Below, one piece after another: positions 2,909 through 8,961 of a stretch of DNA of 8,961 nucleotides. Position 1 is the stretch's first letter; each line of letters opens with the position of its first letter. The translations under genes were made by a program, and so were the position numbers. Under the pieces are notes generated by a model, which saw only the letters and a list, made by a program, of their open reading frames with translations, did not search any database and had not been told where the DNA came from. This DNA comes from Candidatus Omnitrophota bacterium (GTDB lineage Bacteria; Omnitrophota; Koll11; Gygaellales; Profunditerraquicolaceae), in contig JAQUNE010000047.1 in assembly GCA_028717765.1 (NCBI GenBank), forward strand, positions 1-8,961. The letters run 5' to 3'.

Positions 2909-4750
2909 TCAAAAATCAAACTTTAGCCCGTTAGTGATGGAAAATCCAGGCATAGGATAATCACGGATCACCTGATATTTCTTTGCCAGCATATTGTCTA
3001 TATTAAAGTAATAACTGATCCCATGTTTAAATTTCTTGGAGGCATTTACCCCTAAAACAAAAAATTGTTTTACCTTTATACTGTTATCGGCATCGTGGAA
3101 TCTCTGGCCGGTAAACTGCCCCTTAAATTCAATCAAGAAACCATTAAGATTATGATATTTCAAAGAAAAATCGACCTTGTCTTCTGGCTGATAGATGAGG
3201 AACTTATGGGTCTTACTATCCTTTGCTAAAAGATAAGTAAACCCTAGCCCAATTTCAAAATTATCAGTGAGGTTAATATGATTTTGCAATTCTGCCCCCT
3301 GGATTACCGCCGAGCCGATATTTTTCGGGCTCCAGACGTTTGCAGCATCAGGAACCCAATTAATCAATTCATTGTAATTACTTCTGTAATAAGTCAAATC
3401 TGCAGAAAAATATTTATTTAGCCTGGTTTCGTAGCCCAATTCTGCAGTCGCCCCTTTTTCCGGTTTGAGGTTAGGATTGCCCATACTAAATCCGTCATTG
3501 GGCCAATAGAGGTCATTAAAGGTGGGCGCGCGGAAAGAACGGCTGACTAAACTATGCAGTTTATTATTCTCATTAAATTTATATAAAAAGCTAAAGCTGG
3601 GGGAAGGCTGCAAGCCAAAATTAGAATAATCATCAACGCGTACGCCTAAGGATAATTTTATTTTTTTAGTGAGCTCAAACTGATCATCCAAATACGCTGC
3701 TTTAACATTATATTTATGCTTGGCCGTAGAAGTACTATCATTGAAATTACCCACATAGCTTAAGCCGCTTACTAGGCGGTTTTTTTCAAACAACTGCTTG
3801 CCCAGTTGTAAATTAACGCCTCTAACCTGGGTAGCTTGGATGGATTTTGGTGCGCCGGTATCATATAATGAATCCATGGAATTTTGCATAAATTCCAAGC
3901 GGTCATAATTATTGTATATTTTGGAAGAGATCAAGGTTGTATCATCCACTTTATAGTCCCAGTTAAGATCGAGGAAATTTTTCAGGGTCCTCTGTTTATC
4001 GTCGATATCCGGCGCGCTGATCGGGCCCGGTACTCCTACCATGGCTTTATAAAAACCACCGCCAAAAGTAAGGTTATTATTATCATTCAGTTTATATTCC
4101 AGTTTGGTATTAAAATCTTTCGCGTTAGTTTCGGAATTAGTACGAAATCCGGCAGAACTTTCGTAGCTGCCGCTTACCAGGTACCCGAATTTACCGATCC
4201 TTGCCCCATGCACCAGCCGTTCAAGATAAGTACGAAAAGTTCCAAAACTAGTACTAAATTGGGTTTCCTCTTTTTCTTTCGGTGGGCTCTTGGTAATAAT
4301 ATTTATTGTCCCTCCCATCGCCGAAGAACCGTATAAATTCGAAGTCGGGCCATAGACAACCTCCACCCGCTCAACGTCTTCTAAAAGTATGTTGCTTAAA
4401 TCAATTGCCCCGTCTCGAGGGCTATTCATCGGCCTGCCATCGATTAAAACCAATACCTGAGAAGCAGTTGACCCGCGCATTCTGATATTTTTTAAGCCGC
4501 CTACTCCGCCGTAATCTGATATATCAACCGAGGTCCTTTCGGTTAGTACCTGCGACAAATCTTTTGCTCCGGAAGACTCAATCTCTCCGGAAGTGATCAC
4601 GTCTACCTTGCGAGAGGTATTACCCGAGCTCTCTTCAACCCTTGAGGGAGTAATAACAATCTTATCCAGGTCAACATCAAGAGCAAATACTGGGATGTAA
4701 ATGCTAAATCCGCATACTGCCAAAAGAAAAAATATTTTTTTCATCTTCAT
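2909..4750 (-). CDS. btuB: BtuB-like TonB-dependent outer-membrane receptor (cobamide uptake)
   Basis: A 613-residue outer-membrane receptor, near the length of E. coli BtuB. A signal peptide (1-23) ends PVFA before LD. A TonB-box-like DKIVITPSR (29-37) follows, then the plug domain (about 45-155) with IRMRGSTASQVLVLIDGRPMN-type and VERVEVVYGPTSNLYGSSAMGGTINIITK-type elements. The rest is a beta barrel with alternating hydrophobic strands, the SFRAPTFNDLYWP and GNPNLKPEKG elements common in BtuB/FepA-type barrels, and a C-terminal phenylalanine (KFDF) suited to BAM-dependent insertion. The ATG at 4750 overlaps the stop of the upstream DUF71 gene by four bases (ATGA), with AGGAG 11 bases upstream; a second ATG two codons on is possible but less well spaced. 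Substrate is inferred from the surrounding cob genes; by sequence alone another siderophore or cobinamide would be possible. Confidence 0.9.
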   Translation of the reverse strand: MKMKKIFFLLAVCGFSIYIPVFALDVDLDKIVITPSRVEESSGNTSRKVDVITSGEIESSGAKDLSQVLTERTSVDISDYGGVGGLKNIRMRGSTASQVLVLIDGRPMNSPRDGAIDLSNILLEDVERVEVVYGPTSNLYGSSAMGGTINIITKSPPKEKEETQFSTSFGTFRTYLERLVHGARIGKFGYLVSGSYESSAGFRTNSETNAKDFNTKLEYKLNDNNNLTFGGGFYKAMVGVPGPISAPDIDDKQRTLKNFLDLNWDYKVDDTTLISSKIYNNYDRLEFMQNSMDSLYDTGAPKSIQATQVRGVNLQLGKQLFEKNRLVSGLSYVGNFNDSTSTAKHKYNVKAAYLDDQFELTKKIKLSLGVRVDDYSNFGLQPSPSFSFLYKFNENNKLHSLVSRSFRAPTFNDLYWPNDGFSMGNPNLKPEKGATAELGYETRLNKYFSADLTYYRSNYNELINWVPDAANVWSPKNIGSAVIQGAELQNHINLTDNFEIGLGFTYLLAKDSKTHKFLIYQPEDKVDFSLKYHNLNGFLIEFKGQFTGQRFHDADNSIKVKQFFVLGVNASKKFKHGISYYFNIDNMLAKKYQVIRDYPMPGFSITNGLKFDF

Positions 4751-5451
4751 CTTTTTACCAACTCCTGACTAGGAACTGCACGGTATTTTTTAATATCCAA
4801 GAACCAGTGCTTCCAATAACTTTCTTTAATAATCGGCTCTGCTTCCAATATTTCGATACGCTGTTTAAAGATCGGCCCATCTACGACCAAGGTATGAAAT
4901 TCGCCTTTTTCGCCGCAGGGACATATCCCTTTTGCCTCTAATTCGGCAATTAAATCCAGATCAATATATCTACCGATATATTCTTTACCCATGACATCTG
5001 CTTTACAGCTGACAATAATTGTTTTAAAACCTAAGCCTAAAAATTCCGCGATGATTTTTTTGGGATCCAGATTCCAGAGCGGCTCAATGGCAGTAATCTT
5101 TAATTCACTACAGACCCGCTCAACCCAACTCTGATGCTCAAGCAAATAGATATCTCCAAAAACCATGGCATTAACACCTTGGGCGATGAATTTATTTACT
5201 GCTGCTTTAAATTCTGCTTCATATTTCTGCATATCCGGGCCGACTTCTTCCTGGACTAAAGGTACGCCGATTAATTGCGCCTGAAAATTTAAAAGTTTTC
5301 CCTCAACGCCATGAAAACATCCGCGCTTGGACTCGCGAGAGATAAAATTTAACAAGCAGGTTATTTTTACTCCCTGCTTTAACGCCTTATAATAAGCCAA
5401 GCAGCTATCCTTTCCACCACTCCAGGACGAAATTGCATTTAAATTATTCAT
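4747..5451 (-). CDS. DUF71/Dph6-like PP-loop ATPase, B12-operon subgroup
   Basis: A 234-residue cytoplasmic protein of the DUF71/COG2102 adenine-nucleotide alpha-hydrolase family, to which archaeal/eukaryotic diphthine-ammonia ligase (Dph6) belongs. The PP-loop SWSGGKDSC (9-17) binds ATP. FGDIYLLEHQSWVERVC (98-114), IIVSCKADVMG (145-155) and CPCGEKGEFHTLV (177-189, close to the Dph6 CGENGEFHT element) define the family. Bacteria lack diphthamide, and published comparative genomics (de Crecy-Lagard and colleagues) separated a bacterial DUF71 group linked to B12 salvage; this gene's place between cobS and btuB fits that group. The chemistry is not known to me; an ATP-dependent amide-bond or adenylation step on a corrinoid side chain or nucleotide loop is inference. 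The start overlaps the cobS stop by four bases (ATGA) with a strong GGGAGGA seven bases upstream. Confidence 0.87.
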   Translation of the reverse strand: MNNLNAISSWSGGKDSCLAYYKALKQGVKITCLLNFISRESKRGCFHGVEGKLLNFQAQLIGVPLVQEEVGPDMQKYEAEFKAAVNKFIAQGVNAMVFGDIYLLEHQSWVERVCSELKITAIEPLWNLDPKKIIAEFLGLGFKTIIVSCKADVMGKEYIGRYIDLDLIAELEAKGICPCGEKGEFHTLVVDGPIFKQRIEILEAEPIIKESYWKHWFLDIKKYRAVPSQELVKR

Positions 5452-6194
5452 CCAAAAATCCTCCCTAAAATTGTGATCGCAAATAATGTAATCACCTCGG
5501 TGATTTCATTTATTGCACCCAGCGTATCACCGGTTATACCACCAATTGTTTTGTTAATGAGTTTACCGATGAAAAAAACCGAAATCGCAATCAAGGCAAA
5601 AACAATCAAACCATTAATCTGCAAAATTAAAAGCGCGGCGGCCAATGTAATTAGTGTGGCGATTATAATTACGCGGATATTAATATTCTCGATAAATGCC
5701 TTGGCCTTGCCTTCTTGGCGTGCGTAAGGAAATAAAAACATTGTAAACACCATCGCCCATCTGCTAAAAATACAGAGTAAAAGCAGTGATTTACCTATTA
5801 GAGATGCAGGTATTGCATAAAGTAGGGCGATCTTTAAAAGTATCACACTGATAATACTTAATACCCCCATCACCCCGGCATGCGAGTCGCGCATGATCTC
5901 AAGCATTTGATCTTTACTTTTCCTGCTTAAGAAAGCATCGAAAGAATCAGACAGCCCGTCTAAATGCATCCCGCCGGAGAGCGCGGCTAAGGAAATCACC
6001 AGGATAATATCAATAGAAATCTGCGCGAAATCGAGAAAAGAGAATAAACTATTAATTCCAAATAAAATAAAACCTAGAAACAGCCCCACCAAAGGGAAAT
6101 AAATCATCGCTCGGGAAAATTTTTCCTGATCGATCATAGGTATTTTAATTGGAATAATCGTCAAAAATTGTAGCGCTAATAAAAAACTGATCAT
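5448..6194 (-). CDS. cobS: Cobalamin (5'-phosphate) synthase CobS
   Basis: An integral inner-membrane enzyme that joins adenosyl-GDP-cobinamide to alpha-ribazole (or its 5'-phosphate), the last assembly step of the nucleotide loop. The 248-residue length is typical. The N-terminus FLLALQFLTIIPI (4-16) is characteristic, as are GGMHLDGLSDSFDA (74-87, acidic residues thought to bind Mg2+), MRDSHAGVMG (101-110) and GGITGDTLGAINE (218-230). Between them are several hydrophobic segments (about 32-55, 60-78, 108-130, 133-156, 173-210, 232-246). ATG at 6194 overlaps the cobT stop by four bases (ATGA), with GGAG 11 bases upstream. It works with CobU and CobT encoded just upstream. Confidence 0.96.
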   Translation of the reverse strand: MISFLLALQFLTIIPIKIPMIDQEKFSRAMIYFPLVGLFLGFILFGINSLFSFLDFAQISIDIILVISLAALSGGMHLDGLSDSFDAFLSRKSKDQMLEIMRDSHAGVMGVLSIISVILLKIALLYAIPASLIGKSLLLLCIFSRWAMVFTMFLFPYARQEGKAKAFIENINIRVIIIATLITLAAALLILQINGLIVFALIAISVFFIGKLINKTIGGITGDTLGAINEITEVITLFAITILGRIFG

Positions 6195-7252
6195 GATTTA
6201 CTTTTCTCCGATACACCCGCGCTCTTAAAGGTAGCCATCTGGGTTAAAATTTTTACTGCTGCCTCTGCTATGCTGATCCCCAATGCTGCTCCCGTACCCT
6301 CGCCTAACCTTAAATTTAAATCAATTAAAGGAGTTAACCCGAGATGCTCTAAAATAATCCGGTGCCCCTTTTCCACTGAACAGTGGCTGGCAATAAAATA
6401 TTCTTTTACTTTAGGCTCCAGATGATAAGCTACCAATGCCCCTGCGCCGGAAATAAAACCATCGATTACAATAGGAACCTTCCTGGCAGCAGCAGCTAAA
6501 ATTACTCCACAGGTTCCACCAATTTCGAATCCTCCTACTTTCGCCAAACAATCAATGGCGCTAGCTGCATCAGGATGATTACAGCTAATTGCCTGTTCAA
6601 TAGTGCGGATTTTCTTTTCTAATCCCTGATCGTCCAGGCCCGTGCCACGGCCAGTAACATCTTTTACTGTCCTTTTTGTCAATACCGCGGTGAGCGCGCT
6701 GGAAGGTGTAGTATTGCCAATGCCCATTTCTCCGGTACCAATAATATCTATCCCCTTTTTATATTCTTCTTCAAAAATCTCAATTCCTGCTTCAATAGAT
6801 TTAATTGCCTCTTCCCTAGTCATTGCTGGCCCTTTAGCCATATTTTTCGTGCCGTAATTTATTTTTTTGATGATGAGTTTTGGATCTGGCTTTAAATCAC
6901 TAGCAACACCTAAATCCGCCACTACCACTCTTGCCCCGGCATGTTTTGCCAAAACATTGATTGCCGCTCCCTGATTGATAAAATTATAGACCATCTGCGC
7001 GGTAACTTCTTTTGGATATGCACTCACGCTCTCTTCGCATACACCGTGATCCGCAGCAAGCGTAAAAATAACTTTATTTTTCAGTGCAGGATTAAGATTA
7101 TGCGTGATTCCCACGATCTGCTTGGCCAATTCTTCCAGCCTGCCTAAGCTGCCTAGTGGCTTAGTAAGATTATCCAGGCGTTCTTGCGCAAGCGCTCTGA
7201 TATTTTCGTCGGGTATCTTGATATTTTTTCTTATCTCAGATATTTTATCCAT
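6191..7252 (-). CDS. cobT: Nicotinate-nucleotide--dimethylbenzimidazole phosphoribosyltransferase CobT
   Basis: This enzyme activates the lower-ligand base: it transfers ribose phosphate from nicotinate mononucleotide to 5,6-dimethylbenzimidazole or a related base, giving alpha-ribazole 5'-phosphate in the cytoplasm. At 353 residues it matches the family (about 350). Motifs include LDNLTKPLGSLGRLEELA (26-43), TLAADHGV (64-71), GEMGIGNTT (174-182), TGRGTGLDD (200-208), and GFEIGGTCGVILAAA (241-255). LRLGEGTGAALG (314-325) carries Glu318, the counterpart of the catalytic Glu317 of the Salmonella enzyme. ATG at 7252 lies eight bases inside the end of cobU; the ribosome site (AAAGGG) is modest, so translational coupling is likely. 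No gene for making a lower-ligand base is visible nearby, so the base is probably imported or released from scavenged cobamides. Confidence 0.97.
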   Translation of the reverse strand: MDKISEIRKNIKIPDENIRALAQERLDNLTKPLGSLGRLEELAKQIVGITHNLNPALKNKVIFTLAADHGVCEESVSAYPKEVTAQMVYNFINQGAAINVLAKHAGARVVVADLGVASDLKPDPKLIIKKINYGTKNMAKGPAMTREEAIKSIEAGIEIFEEEYKKGIDIIGTGEMGIGNTTPSSALTAVLTKRTVKDVTGRGTGLDDQGLEKKIRTIEQAISCNHPDAASAIDCLAKVGGFEIGGTCGVILAAAARKVPIVIDGFISGAGALVAYHLEPKVKEYFIASHCSVEKGHRIILEHLGLTPLIDLNLRLGEGTGAALGISIAEAAVKILTQMATFKSAGVSEKSKS

Positions 7253-7775
7253 TTTTTCGCCCTTTAATTTTTGTAGGTATCCCGGAGATCAAAAAGAATA
7301 CCTCGTCGCTATTTACTGCCATAAATTGATTAACTCTTCCTGCGATATCGCGGAAATTCCTTCCTAACTTATTCCTGGGAACTATCCCTAACCCCACTTC
7401 ATTGGAAACAATGATCACTCTGCCTTTAAACTTTTTTAACTGCTGCAAAACTTTTTTAATATTATTTTCAATGGAATCGTGGCTAGCCCCGGATAAAACC
7501 AAATTAGAAACTAAAAGTGTTAAGCAATCAATGATGATGCAGGGGAAATTATTCCTGATTTTTCCTAAAGCACGCATAATTTCTTTTGGCTCTTCGAATG
7601 TCTGCCAATGGCCAGGACGAGAACTTTGATGCGCTTTGATGCGCTGCTGCATTTCTTTATCTAATCCCTGGCAAGTAGCGATAAAGGCTACCTGACGATA
7701 CTTTTTAGCCAGCTCTAAGGCAAAAGTACTTTTTCCGCTTCTTGCTCCGCCTAATATAAAGGTTATTTTAGCCAT
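7245..7775 (-). CDS. cobU: Adenosylcobinamide kinase / adenosylcobinamide-phosphate guanylyltransferase CobU
   Basis: This bifunctional cytoplasmic enzyme phosphorylates adenosylcobinamide and then transfers GMP to it, giving adenosyl-GDP-cobinamide for CobS. At 176 residues it is normal length. The P-loop GGARSGKS (9-16) is intact. FIATCQGLDKEMQQRI (31-46) leads into AHQSSRPGHW (48-57), where His49 corresponds to the guanylylated His46 of Salmonella CobU. IIIDCLTLLVSNL (80-92) is the Walker B region, and VSNEVGLGIVP (123-133) with LGRNFRDIAGRVNQ (137-150) are near-invariant family elements. ATG at 7775 overlaps the end of cobC by eight bases, with GAGGG five bases upstream. The kinase step suggests that cobinamide itself, not only complete cobamides, is salvaged. 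Confidence 0.96.
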   Translation of the reverse strand: MAKITFILGGARSGKSTFALELAKKYRQVAFIATCQGLDKEMQQRIKAHQSSRPGHWQTFEEPKEIMRALGKIRNNFPCIIIDCLTLLVSNLVLSGASHDSIENNIKKVLQQLKKFKGRVIIVSNEVGLGIVPRNKLGRNFRDIAGRVNQFMAVNSDEVFFLISGIPTKIKGRKNG

Positions 7776-8376
7776 GAGATCCCTCTAAATGAGAAACATC
7801 GTTAAATTTTTTTATCTTTGTTTTACCTTTTTTCTCTTCAACTATACTTATGCTTGCAGATGAAGGAATCTGCTTCCAAAATTCTTTTGATTTAAGAATA
7901 TGGTTGAGAAAAATACTGATCGAACCGCCGTGACAGACCACAGCCACAGTTTTGCCCTGATTAGCAACGATAATTTTACAGACCGCTTTTACTACACGCT
8001 GTTTAAAATCTTTTAAATTCTCACCCTTGGGAATAGTGGTATTAAAGGGATCCTTGAGCCATTTCTTTAAAACTAGGGGGTGCTTTTGCATTACTTGCTG
8101 ATAAGTCAATCCCTCAAAGACCCCGAAATGTATCTCCCTGAGATCCGCCACCTTTTCAACCTTGCATTTTGAAAAAATAATTTTTGCGGTTTCCAAGGCG
8201 CGTTTTTTATTGCTCACATAAATTTTATCTACCGGCTGAGAACTTAATTTTTGCTTTAATTTTCTTGCCTGGGCCTTTCCTTTACGGTTAAGGGGAATAT
8301 CTGTTGAGCCGGCGTACTTTTTTTTAAGGTTCCACTCTGTCTGGCCGTGCCTGATAAAAATCAATTTAGTGGCCAC
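7768..8376 (-). CDS. cobC: Alpha-ribazole phosphatase CobC (histidine phosphatase family)
   Basis: A 202-residue cytoplasmic phosphatase of the phosphoglycerate-mutase-like superfamily, expected to remove the 5'-phosphate from alpha-ribazole phosphate or adenosylcobalamin phosphate. Catalytic features are RHG (9-11, nucleophile His10), Arg59 in SNKKRALETA, LREIHFGVFEGL (79-90) with the acid Glu81, PKGENLKDFKQRV (116-128), and VVCHGGS (146-152) with the second His149. The protein is unusually rich in lysine. The superfamily is broad, so the CobC role relies on the neighbouring cobU/cobT/cobS genes; an unrelated sugar-phosphatase role is the main alternative. The start is GTG at 8376, eleven bases inside the upstream ATPase gene, supported by a strong GAGGAG about eight bases upstream. 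Confidence 0.88.
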   Translation of the reverse strand: MATKLIFIRHGQTEWNLKKKYAGSTDIPLNRKGKAQARKLKQKLSSQPVDKIYVSNKKRALETAKIIFSKCKVEKVADLREIHFGVFEGLTYQQVMQKHPLVLKKWLKDPFNTTIPKGENLKDFKQRVVKAVCKIIVANQGKTVAVVCHGGSISIFLNHILKSKEFWKQIPSSASISIVEEKKGKTKIKKFNDVSHLEGSHG

Positions 8377-8961
8377 GGTTTTTCTCCTCTTGCGGCACCA
8401 GAATGATATAAGGCTTTTTGCTGATCGGATTTTCCTTTACCACGACAATGGTTTTATAGACCGCCTCAATATTTTGATAGGTTAACACTTCTTCCGGAGC
8501 ACCCGCTTTAAAAACCTCTCCTGCGTTTAAAAGCAGGACCCGGTTACAATATTCGCTTGCCAGATTCAAATCATGCAAAACCATGACAATAGTAAGATTA
8601 CTTTGACGGTTAAGCTTCTTTAAGAGATCCAATACCTGGATCTGATGGCCAATATCTAGATGTGAGGTCGGCTCATCTAAAAATAGCAGAATCGGCTCCT
8701 GGGTAAGTGCTTTGGCAATTATTACGCGTTGGCGCTCTCCGGAACTTAGCTCATCAATGCGTTTAAGTGCTAGATTCGTTGTATCGGTTGCCACCATCGC
8801 ATTTTGTGCGATCTGCCGGTCTTTTTTACTTTCAGCTTGCAGCCTTTTTAAATGTGGGATCCTACCCATTAAGACAATTTCTAAAACTGTAAAAGGAAAA
8901 TTGATTGCCGTATCCTGTTGCACAAAAGCCACCCTTTGACAAAACTTTTTTAAATCCATCC
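8366..8961 (-). CDS. btuD: ABC transporter ATP-binding protein, BtuD/FecE type (5' end cut by the right edge)
   Basis: The cytoplasmic ATPase of an importer for corrinoids or, less likely, ferric siderophores. Only the C-terminal ~198 codons are in the window. A Met codon at 8959 is internal, since the frame continues to the edge and the P-loop (Walker A) is missing. Numbering from that Met, the Q-loop is VQQD (13-16), the ABC signature is LSSGERQR (71-78, Ser in place of the second Gly-like position), Walker B with the catalytic glutamate is ILLFLDEP (90-97), the D-loop is SHLD (99-102) and the switch histidine is His129 in VLHDLNLA. The arrangement is that of the iron/B12 (FecCD-type) importer ATPases. 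A permease and binding protein (BtuC, BtuF) would be expected beyond the edge. The stop overlaps cobC by eleven bases. Substrate specificity rests on the cob operon context. Confidence 0.88.
   Translation of the reverse strand, partial: MDLKKFCQRVAFVQQDTAINFPFTVLEIVLMGRIPHLKRLQAESKKDRQIAQNAMVATDTTNLALKRIDELSSGERQRVIIAKALTQEPILLFLDEPTSHLDIGHQIQVLDLLKKLNRQSNLTIVMVLHDLNLASEYCNRVLLLNAGEVFKAGAPEEVLTYQNIEAVYKTIVVVKENPISKKPYIILVPQEEKNRGH
8381..8394 (-). promoter_or_regulatory. Ribosome binding site for the GTG start of cobC
   Basis: Inside the last codons of the ATPase gene the minus strand reads AAGAGGAGAAA shortly before GTG at 8376. The strong GAGGAG core supports the GTG as the cobC start and points to translational coupling across the 11-base overlap. 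Confidence 0.65.

Follow-up and report, generated by a model that had tools for sequence, protein, structure and literature searches.

A DUF71-B12 ATPase in a corrinoid salvage operon of Candidatus Omnitrophota: constraints on its reaction from the gene content of relatives

Encoded amid genes for vitamin B12 uptake and nucleotide-loop assembly, a PP-loop ATPase of the DUF71 family raises a simple question, namely which step of corrinoid metabolism it carries out. The gene lies on the minus strand, at positions 4747-5451, of an 8,961-nt stretch of contig JAQUNE010000047.1 (GCA_028717765.1) from a Candidatus Omnitrophota bacterium, hereafter the window, in the order btuD-like ATPase-cobC-cobU-cobT-cobS-DUF71-btuB, followed by a tonB-like gene. 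As judged from its sequence, it is a real member of the DUF71-B12 subgroup, which is known and functionally open. The B12 link itself having already been published in 2012, what is new is a constraint on the reaction, drawn from genomes without CbiB and CbiP: in the lineage of the window, the role must work without these two enzymes, and some relatives seem to dispense with loop assembly as well, an advance that is mostly negative. The best reading is that the enzyme uses ATP to amidate side-chain carboxylates of imported corrinoids, a tentative proposal given clearly less than an even chance.

The DUF71-B12 subgroup was predicted by comparative genomics (de Crecy-Lagard et al., 2012; PMC3541065), as the initial annotation of this DNA had noted. 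In that survey, of 102 genes, 75 adjoin those for B12 transporters and 18 adjoin cbiB, the subgroup is anti-correlated with CbiZ in bacteria, and a CbiZ-like or other role in pseudo-B12 salvage was proposed (PMC3541065). A table published in 2016 still gives the group as of unknown function (PMC5041015). In the literature searched, in which subscription journals are thinly covered, no paper assigning a reaction to DUF71-B12 was found, which agrees with the earlier statement that no defined reaction was known. Nothing usable came up there either on corrinoid-linked asparagine synthetases, on CbpB or on amidation.

Family membership of the DUF71 protein

The protein of 234 amino acids matches PF01902 in a Pfam profile search with 185.3 bits (cut-off 23.2) over residues 7-224. 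As initially annotated, both the PP-loop SWSGGKDSC (residues 9-17; positions 5401-5427, minus strand) and the element CGEKGEFHTLV (residues 179-189; positions 4885-4917, minus strand), which holds Cys179 as well as His186 at the position of Glu188 in Dph6, are intact. Across a 68-row alignment, PP-loop residues 9-11 and 13-16 are invariant and Gly12 is kept in at least 90% of rows; Asp100, Trp109, Cys179 and His186 are each kept in at least 95% of 103 rows with B12 context. The nearest solved structures are 3rjz/3rk0/3rk1 (PF0828), with ATP and AMP bound (PMC3541065), and PH1257 (2d13).

That a bacterial DUF71 protein of this kind would not be Dph6, as previously held, is confirmed on several counts. 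Like the archaeal diphthine-ammonia ligase Dph6, the window protein belongs to the family by sequence and exhibits the PP-loop, His47 and the GExGE core, but its score against the archaeal Dph6 equivalog model TIGR03679 (153.2) falls below the cut-off of 197.3, the Dph6 motif EGGE-x-E188 is absent from its aligned sequence, and its context is that of bacterial B12 genes. Among 147 aligned DUF71 rows, the Glu188 position is Glu in 6/6 archaeal Dph6 and His in all 141 others, window included, whereas Cys179 is present in 51/52, 22/23 and 26/27 rows of three B12 contexts, 30/38 rows without B12 context and 0/6 Dph6. Several positions modelled in 2012 as contacting elongation factor 2 (EF-2) are also changed in a profile alignment, i.e., Ser44 to Arg43, Tyr45 to Gly44, Tyr103 to Glu105, Gln104 to His106 and Glu188 to His186, a single-sequence alignment placing Tyr103 elsewhere. 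In a maximum-likelihood tree (quick search, SH-aLRT support only), four archaeal Dph6 rows split off with support 100, and the window falls in a 24-row clade (support 97) made of 22 rows with CobS and no CbiB, the window itself and one row without CobS (L177). Databases often name bacterial DUF71 proteins diphthine--ammonia ligase, yet every non-Dph6 row aligned lacks the Dph6 glutamate.

With the DUF71-B12 subgroup of 2012, the protein shares PF01902 with an intact PP-loop, His for Glu188, B12 transport and salvage neighbours, a position apart from Dph6 and, in the relatives, the lack of CbiZ in the bacterial genomes tested (CbiZ in archaea only, 5 of the 49 genomes). The one departure is that genomes with the arrangement of the window, as well as those restricted to uptake, show no CbiB, which the proposed CbiZ-like role needs. 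Plasmid-borne DUF71 copies were considered as named models and set aside, no annotated B12 genes standing beside DUF71 in the three regions read.

Occurrence in operons and genomes of relatives

Relatives were read at 80 loci from a genome collection and at 100 further Omnitrophota loci (numbers with L refer to loci, those with G to genomes), and the window's arrangement, i.e., DUF71 adjoining cobS, is called type A. Genes were found with a simple open reading frame (ORF) caller, in which L191 and L193 lost the DUF71 frame, and were labelled by BLAST against members named by family search of window or representative proteins, or by eye; counts of locus contexts take in some genomes twice, the same locus having come in with both sets. 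The loci read comprise 20 of 25 type A copies, 20 of 25 DUF71 copies of genomes with CbiB, 20 of 31 CobS places in genomes with CbiB and no DUF71, 12 of 13 CobS-only places and 8 of 16 DUF71 copies of other genomes with CobS, in addition to the genomes with neither CobS nor CbiB treated below.

A common order in Omnitrophota, to which nearly all named close homologues of the protein belong, is an adenosyltransferase gene, a cobalamin riboswitch and btuF-btuC-btuD-cobC-cobU-cobT-cobS-DUF71-btuB(-tonB). Repeated as it is across the Omnitrophota loci read, the gene order of the window is not a matter of chance, and both the tie to corrinoid metabolism and the conservation of the neighbourhood are borne out. 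A cobalamin riboswitch is present in 7/7 type A loci scanned, just before btuF in six and before btuB in L101; with a riboswitch 5' of btuF, the equivalent site would fall outside the window, in which none was found at the Rfam threshold. In Bathyarchaeota and in one Thermoplasmatota locus, DUF71 accompanies an archaeal-type CobT (TIGR00303, 384.8 vs 240 for the one checked) and mostly a CobY-like protein in place of the bacterial partners, the representative scoring below the CobY model cut-off. As such, the B12 link outlasts the replacement of its partners.

Genome-wide counts refer to the genomes of relatives, the window's own genome lying outside the set. Over cut-off, PF01902 is found in 98, CobS in 103, CbiB in 54 and CbiP/CobQ in 54 of 285 Omnitrophota genomes. 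All three of DUF71, CobS and CbiB co-occur in 23 genomes, DUF71 and CobS in 37, CobS and CbiB in 30, while CobS alone occurs in 13, DUF71 alone in 38 and CbiB alone in one. Among the 25 genomes with the type A arrangement, neither CbiB (0/25) nor CbiP (0/25) passes the cut-off, whereas 53 of the 78 other genomes with CobS have CbiB (Fisher 2e-10, a p value that ignores kinship); on the tree, the CbiB state of the B12-context rows requires at the fewest five changes. CbiB, BtuR-type, PduO-type and CbiZ proteins were also searched in 49 genomes (50 of the first 80 loci), where CbiB occurs in 15/49 overall and in 0/26 of the first-ranked, which hold the closest DUF71 relatives, a BtuR-type adenosyltransferase in 37/49 and a PduO-type one over cut-off in 2/49. 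Where Omnitrophota do possess CbiB, 22 of 25 DUF71 copies lie within 10 kb of cbiB.

In 38 genomes, DUF71 occurs with neither CobS nor CbiB. They hold 41 DUF71 copies, 20 of which were read, 14 standing beside btuB, btuC or btuF and six not. In the 14 genomes concerned, hereafter uptake-only, searches for CobT and CobU were negative (0/14 each) while 8/8 control genomes were positive for each, and B12-binding domains were found in 22/22 genomes searched, all 14 included (near position 1248266 of contig C1 of G122, such a domain sits within a giant ORF of 45,379 amino acids). The locus of G291 is carried on a 1.275 Mb contig of a genome of about 1.3 Mb, which makes a gap unlikely there. The uptake-only loci typically read btuF-btuC-btuD-DUF71-btuB(-tonB) or riboswitch-DUF71-btuB(-tonB), a cobalamin riboswitch being present in 13/14 of them (none in L184). 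In seven of the 14, the riboswitch match lies directly upstream of DUF71, above the Rfam threshold in L177, L178, L180 and L182 and below it in L175, L176 and L179 (41-47 bits vs 50, E 1e-7 to 3e-6), so that DUF71 can head a B12-controlled unit with the receptor in genomes where assembly genes went undetected. L177 (G206) is the clearest example: it belongs to the window's clade and combines canonical SGGKDS and CGENGEFHT motifs with the order riboswitch-DUF71-btuB. Among the uptake-only copies, His186 is kept in 15/15 and Cys179 in 14/15. Two tandem divergent DUF71 genes, of different clades, lie between btuB and btuF in L181 (7807-9142), whose genome is near-single-contig with CobS, CobT and CobU undetected.

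Candidate reactions on imported corrinoids

Amidation, the reaction tentatively preferred, would take place on imported corrinoids, with no need for CbiB or, in some relatives, for loop assembly. On a corrinoid that is incomplete or has been hydrolysed, a side-chain carboxylate would be adenylated with ATP and then, with ammonia, turned into a carboxamide, much as diphthine is amidated by Dph6. Such a reaction would widen the range of corrinoids usable through BtuB/BtuFCD import. What is observed is the family, the motif, the operon, the association with riboswitches in relatives, and the presence of DUF71 in genomes where CbiB, CbiP or, in 14 of them, CobS, CobT and CobU go undetected; a corrinoid as the substrate, amidation as the reaction and ammonia as the donor are what we infer. 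Carboxylate activation by adenylation is the chemistry of PP-loop relatives. Dph6 itself makes an amide (PMC3541065).

Gene content gives further hints of such chemistry. Seven genomes without CbiB, namely G293, G315, G143 and G310 with CobS, and G115, G135 and G111 without it, encode CbiP right before DUF71; since known enzymes cannot take cobyric acid to a cobamide in those seven genomes, CbiP plausibly re-amidates imported corrinoids. Ten of the 20 loci read with both CbiB and DUF71 carry an asparagine-synthase-like PP-loop protein that lacks a glutaminase domain, as checked with Pfam for one of them. Present at the loci read of 14 Omnitrophota genomes, 13 of them without CbiP over cut-off, this protein seems to replace CbiP, the cobyric acid synthase, as far as may be judged from gene content; the exception, G249, has CbiP and the asparagine-synthase-like protein in two complete loci, one of each kind. 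On the CbiB tree, the exchange between the two needs two switches, and independent events are therefore few. This single-domain protein (e.g., L115 7625-8500, L119 5278-6207, L132 and L185) is found before DUF71 in cob loci and bears two C-terminal CxxC motifs in most full-length copies. At the locus level, CbiA is labelled in 15/20 loci with CbiB and no DUF71 vs 0/20 with both, and neither CbiA nor CbiP was found in the 1.19 Mb read (about 83%) of a 1.43 Mb contig of G258.

The patterns of CbiP, of the asparagine-synthase-like protein and of CbiA would favour an amidation module. In its extended form, an ammonia-dependent and non-orthologous module, DUF71 would stand for CbiA (side chains a and c) and the asparagine-synthase-like protein for CbiP (b, d, e and g), finishing or repairing environmental corrinoids, and uptake-only bacteria would keep DUF71 alone for cobamide repair; in this full form, the proposal is unlikely. 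The amidotransferases CbiP/CobQ and CbiA/CobB would do the same kind of chemistry, and CbiP is a recurrent upstream neighbour of DUF71, but they belong to other Pfam families (CbiA/GATase_3) and depend on glutamine, DUF71 being devoid of a glutaminase domain.

Several observations weigh against amidation. The genomes are not independent, and gaps in metagenome-assembled genomes may hide genes. His186 is not B12-specific, as it is also present in 38/38 rows without B12 neighbours in the stretch read, and it replaces the glutamate proposed as catalytic in Dph6. The same operon occurs without DUF71 in L155 and L156 (cobS-btuB gaps of 163 and 155 bases, with no DUF71 match in the locus), which makes the step dispensable. 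In the 20 type A loci read, genes for CbiP, CobD, the asparagine-synthase-like protein, CbiR and CbpB are all missing, as is any other amidotransferase of the labelled kinds. In uptake-only genomes, the PP-loop differs from SGGKDS in 9/15 copies, being SSGKDS in six (Gly12 to Ser; L175, L176, L178, L179, L180 and L182), SGGKDC in L183 and L184, and SGGKES in L181_9, and His106 is Leu in 10/15, so that the role may have changed there. Copies L187, L188 and L190 group with DUF71 proteins lacking B12 neighbours in a divergent clade, and a siderophore model fits the receptors of L187 and L188, the two scanned, slightly better than does the B12 model; each of these three loci carries a cobalamin riboswitch. 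If DUF71 has one job throughout, neither CbiB substitution nor loop remodelling could finish in uptake-only cells; if the job has changed in these genomes, both are excluded on weaker evidence only. That DUF71 is vestigial in the uptake-only genomes is not favoured, the frames being open and His186 kept in 15/15, yet the altered PP-loops remain to its credit.

The leading proposal of 2012, an analogue of CbiZ cleaving pseudo-B12 or other cobamides to cobyric acid for rebuilding by CbiB, is doubtful here. The published anti-correlation with CbiZ in bacteria (PMC3541065), the restriction of CbiZ to archaea in the present searches and the proximity of most DUF71 copies to cbiB in Omnitrophota with CbiB would fit it, but ATP is not required for hydrolysis, and with CbiB undetected in the genomes of the 26 closest relatives, the 25 of type A and the 14 uptake-only ones, cobyric acid from such a cleavage would be a dead end. 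Cobamide remodelling, whereby the lower ligand would be removed to leave cobinamide or its phosphate for CobU and CobS, was one of the roles suggested at the outset and is decidedly doubtful: type A operons can rebuild the loop from cobinamide phosphate, and the window itself is compatible with it, but ATP would again be unnecessary, there would be no way to finish in the 14 genomes without detected CobS, CobT and CobU, and the absence of CbiR from DUF71 loci that a CbiR equivalent calls for is contradicted by a CbiR-family gene near DUF71 in four of them (L007, L010, L052 and L170; NF041277 255.7 vs 105 for the L007 protein checked). The remodelling enzymes CbiR and CbiZ also occur in B12 salvage loci (for their reactions, see PMC7733943) but are of different families, and their products need CbiB or loop-assembly genes absent from some DUF71 genomes.

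A further suggestion of the initial annotation, the ATP-dependent ligation of an aminopropanol arm to cobyric acid in place of CbiB, fits poorly and is highly improbable; such a reaction would form an amide, and type A DUF71 never occurs with CbiB, but DUF71 and CbiB coexist in 23 genomes, DUF71 lies beside uptake genes in genomes with no detected CobS, CobT or CobU, and the type A genomes have no CbiP over cut-off, nor was CobD found in the 20 type A loci read. Of the three roles first proposed, the amidation of an incomplete side chain thus survives best. That the enzyme modifies an uptake-system protein or peptide, in the way that Dph6 acts on EF-2, is very unlikely: the substrate of Dph6 is a protein, and the peptide-modifying CbpB (TIGR04163, matched by two cob-locus proteins) is encoded just upstream of DUF71 at seven places, but CbpB is missing from the 20 type A loci read and several EF-2-contact residues of the published model differ here. 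As for DUF71 being the operon's missing ATP:corrinoid adenosyltransferase, the family does bind ATP and the window has no adenosyltransferase gene; this role is rejected, with hardly any probability left to it, given the BtuR-type enzyme in 37/49 genomes, often adjoining the operon. The PP-loop fold, moreover, cleaves the alpha-beta bond, which weighs against such a role.

The operon of the window and what its enzyme may mean

Neighbours in the window, all on the minus strand, were named by Pfam and NCBIfam profile models. Upstream of the DUF71 gene lie cobS (adenosylcobinamide-GDP ribazoletransferase; 5448-6194; TIGR00317, 145.5 vs cut-off 110), cobT (6191-7252; TIGR03160, 458.2 vs 319.3), cobU (7245-7775; NF004469, 197.6 vs 161), a cobC-like alpha-ribazole phosphatase gene (7768-8376; TIGR03162, 160.0, slightly below the cut-off of 162.9) and a btuD-like gene for an ABC ATPase of corrinoid/heme type (8366-8959; best model NF007082, corrinoid ABC ATPase, below cut-off), truncated at its 5' end by the window edge. 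Downstream follow a gene for a btuB-like TonB-dependent receptor (2909-4750; best match TIGR01779, 207.1, below the cut-off of 599.7) and one for a TonB-like protein (2183-2869; TIGR01352, 31.2 vs 27.1), the likely partner of btuB. From the ABC ATPase through btuB, 6/6 junctions overlap, and the overlaps of DUF71 with cobS (5448-5451) and btuB (4747-4750) are of exactly 4 bases, as previously noted. Downstream of the operon, the same strand encodes a DnaG-primase-like N-terminus (2-646, judged by eye) and a DUF34/NIF3 protein (669-1616).

Some observations concern the cob loci of relatives. Many Omnitrophota cob loci, whether or not they contain DUF71, encode the peptide-modifying radical SAM protein CbpB, e.g., L121, L122 (14573-15901), L135, L155 (11766-13064) and L156 (10273-11688); in L121 and L122 the label rests on a TIGR04163 score above cut-off, in the others on BLAST. 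Another radical SAM protein, of 241-287 amino acids, occurs in seven loci (L122 7756-8481 and six more), two of which belong to one genome, and lies directly downstream of DUF71 in six places. The DUF71 protein of L134 (G128), whose cob locus also contains cbiP, cobD and cbiB, forms a very long branch, and its function has possibly changed.

The function of DUF71-B12 has been open since 2012, and many such proteins still bear the name diphthine--ammonia ligase in databases. Genomes with DUF71 but no CbiB, and in some cases no detected loop assembly, narrow the proposed roles, and an enzyme tied to imported corrinoids amid so little of the assembly pathway offers a clean assay. Should the amidation of corrinoid carboxylates prove true, bacterial nutrition would gain B12 repair as a new activity, and the prediction of B12 dependence from genomes would change.

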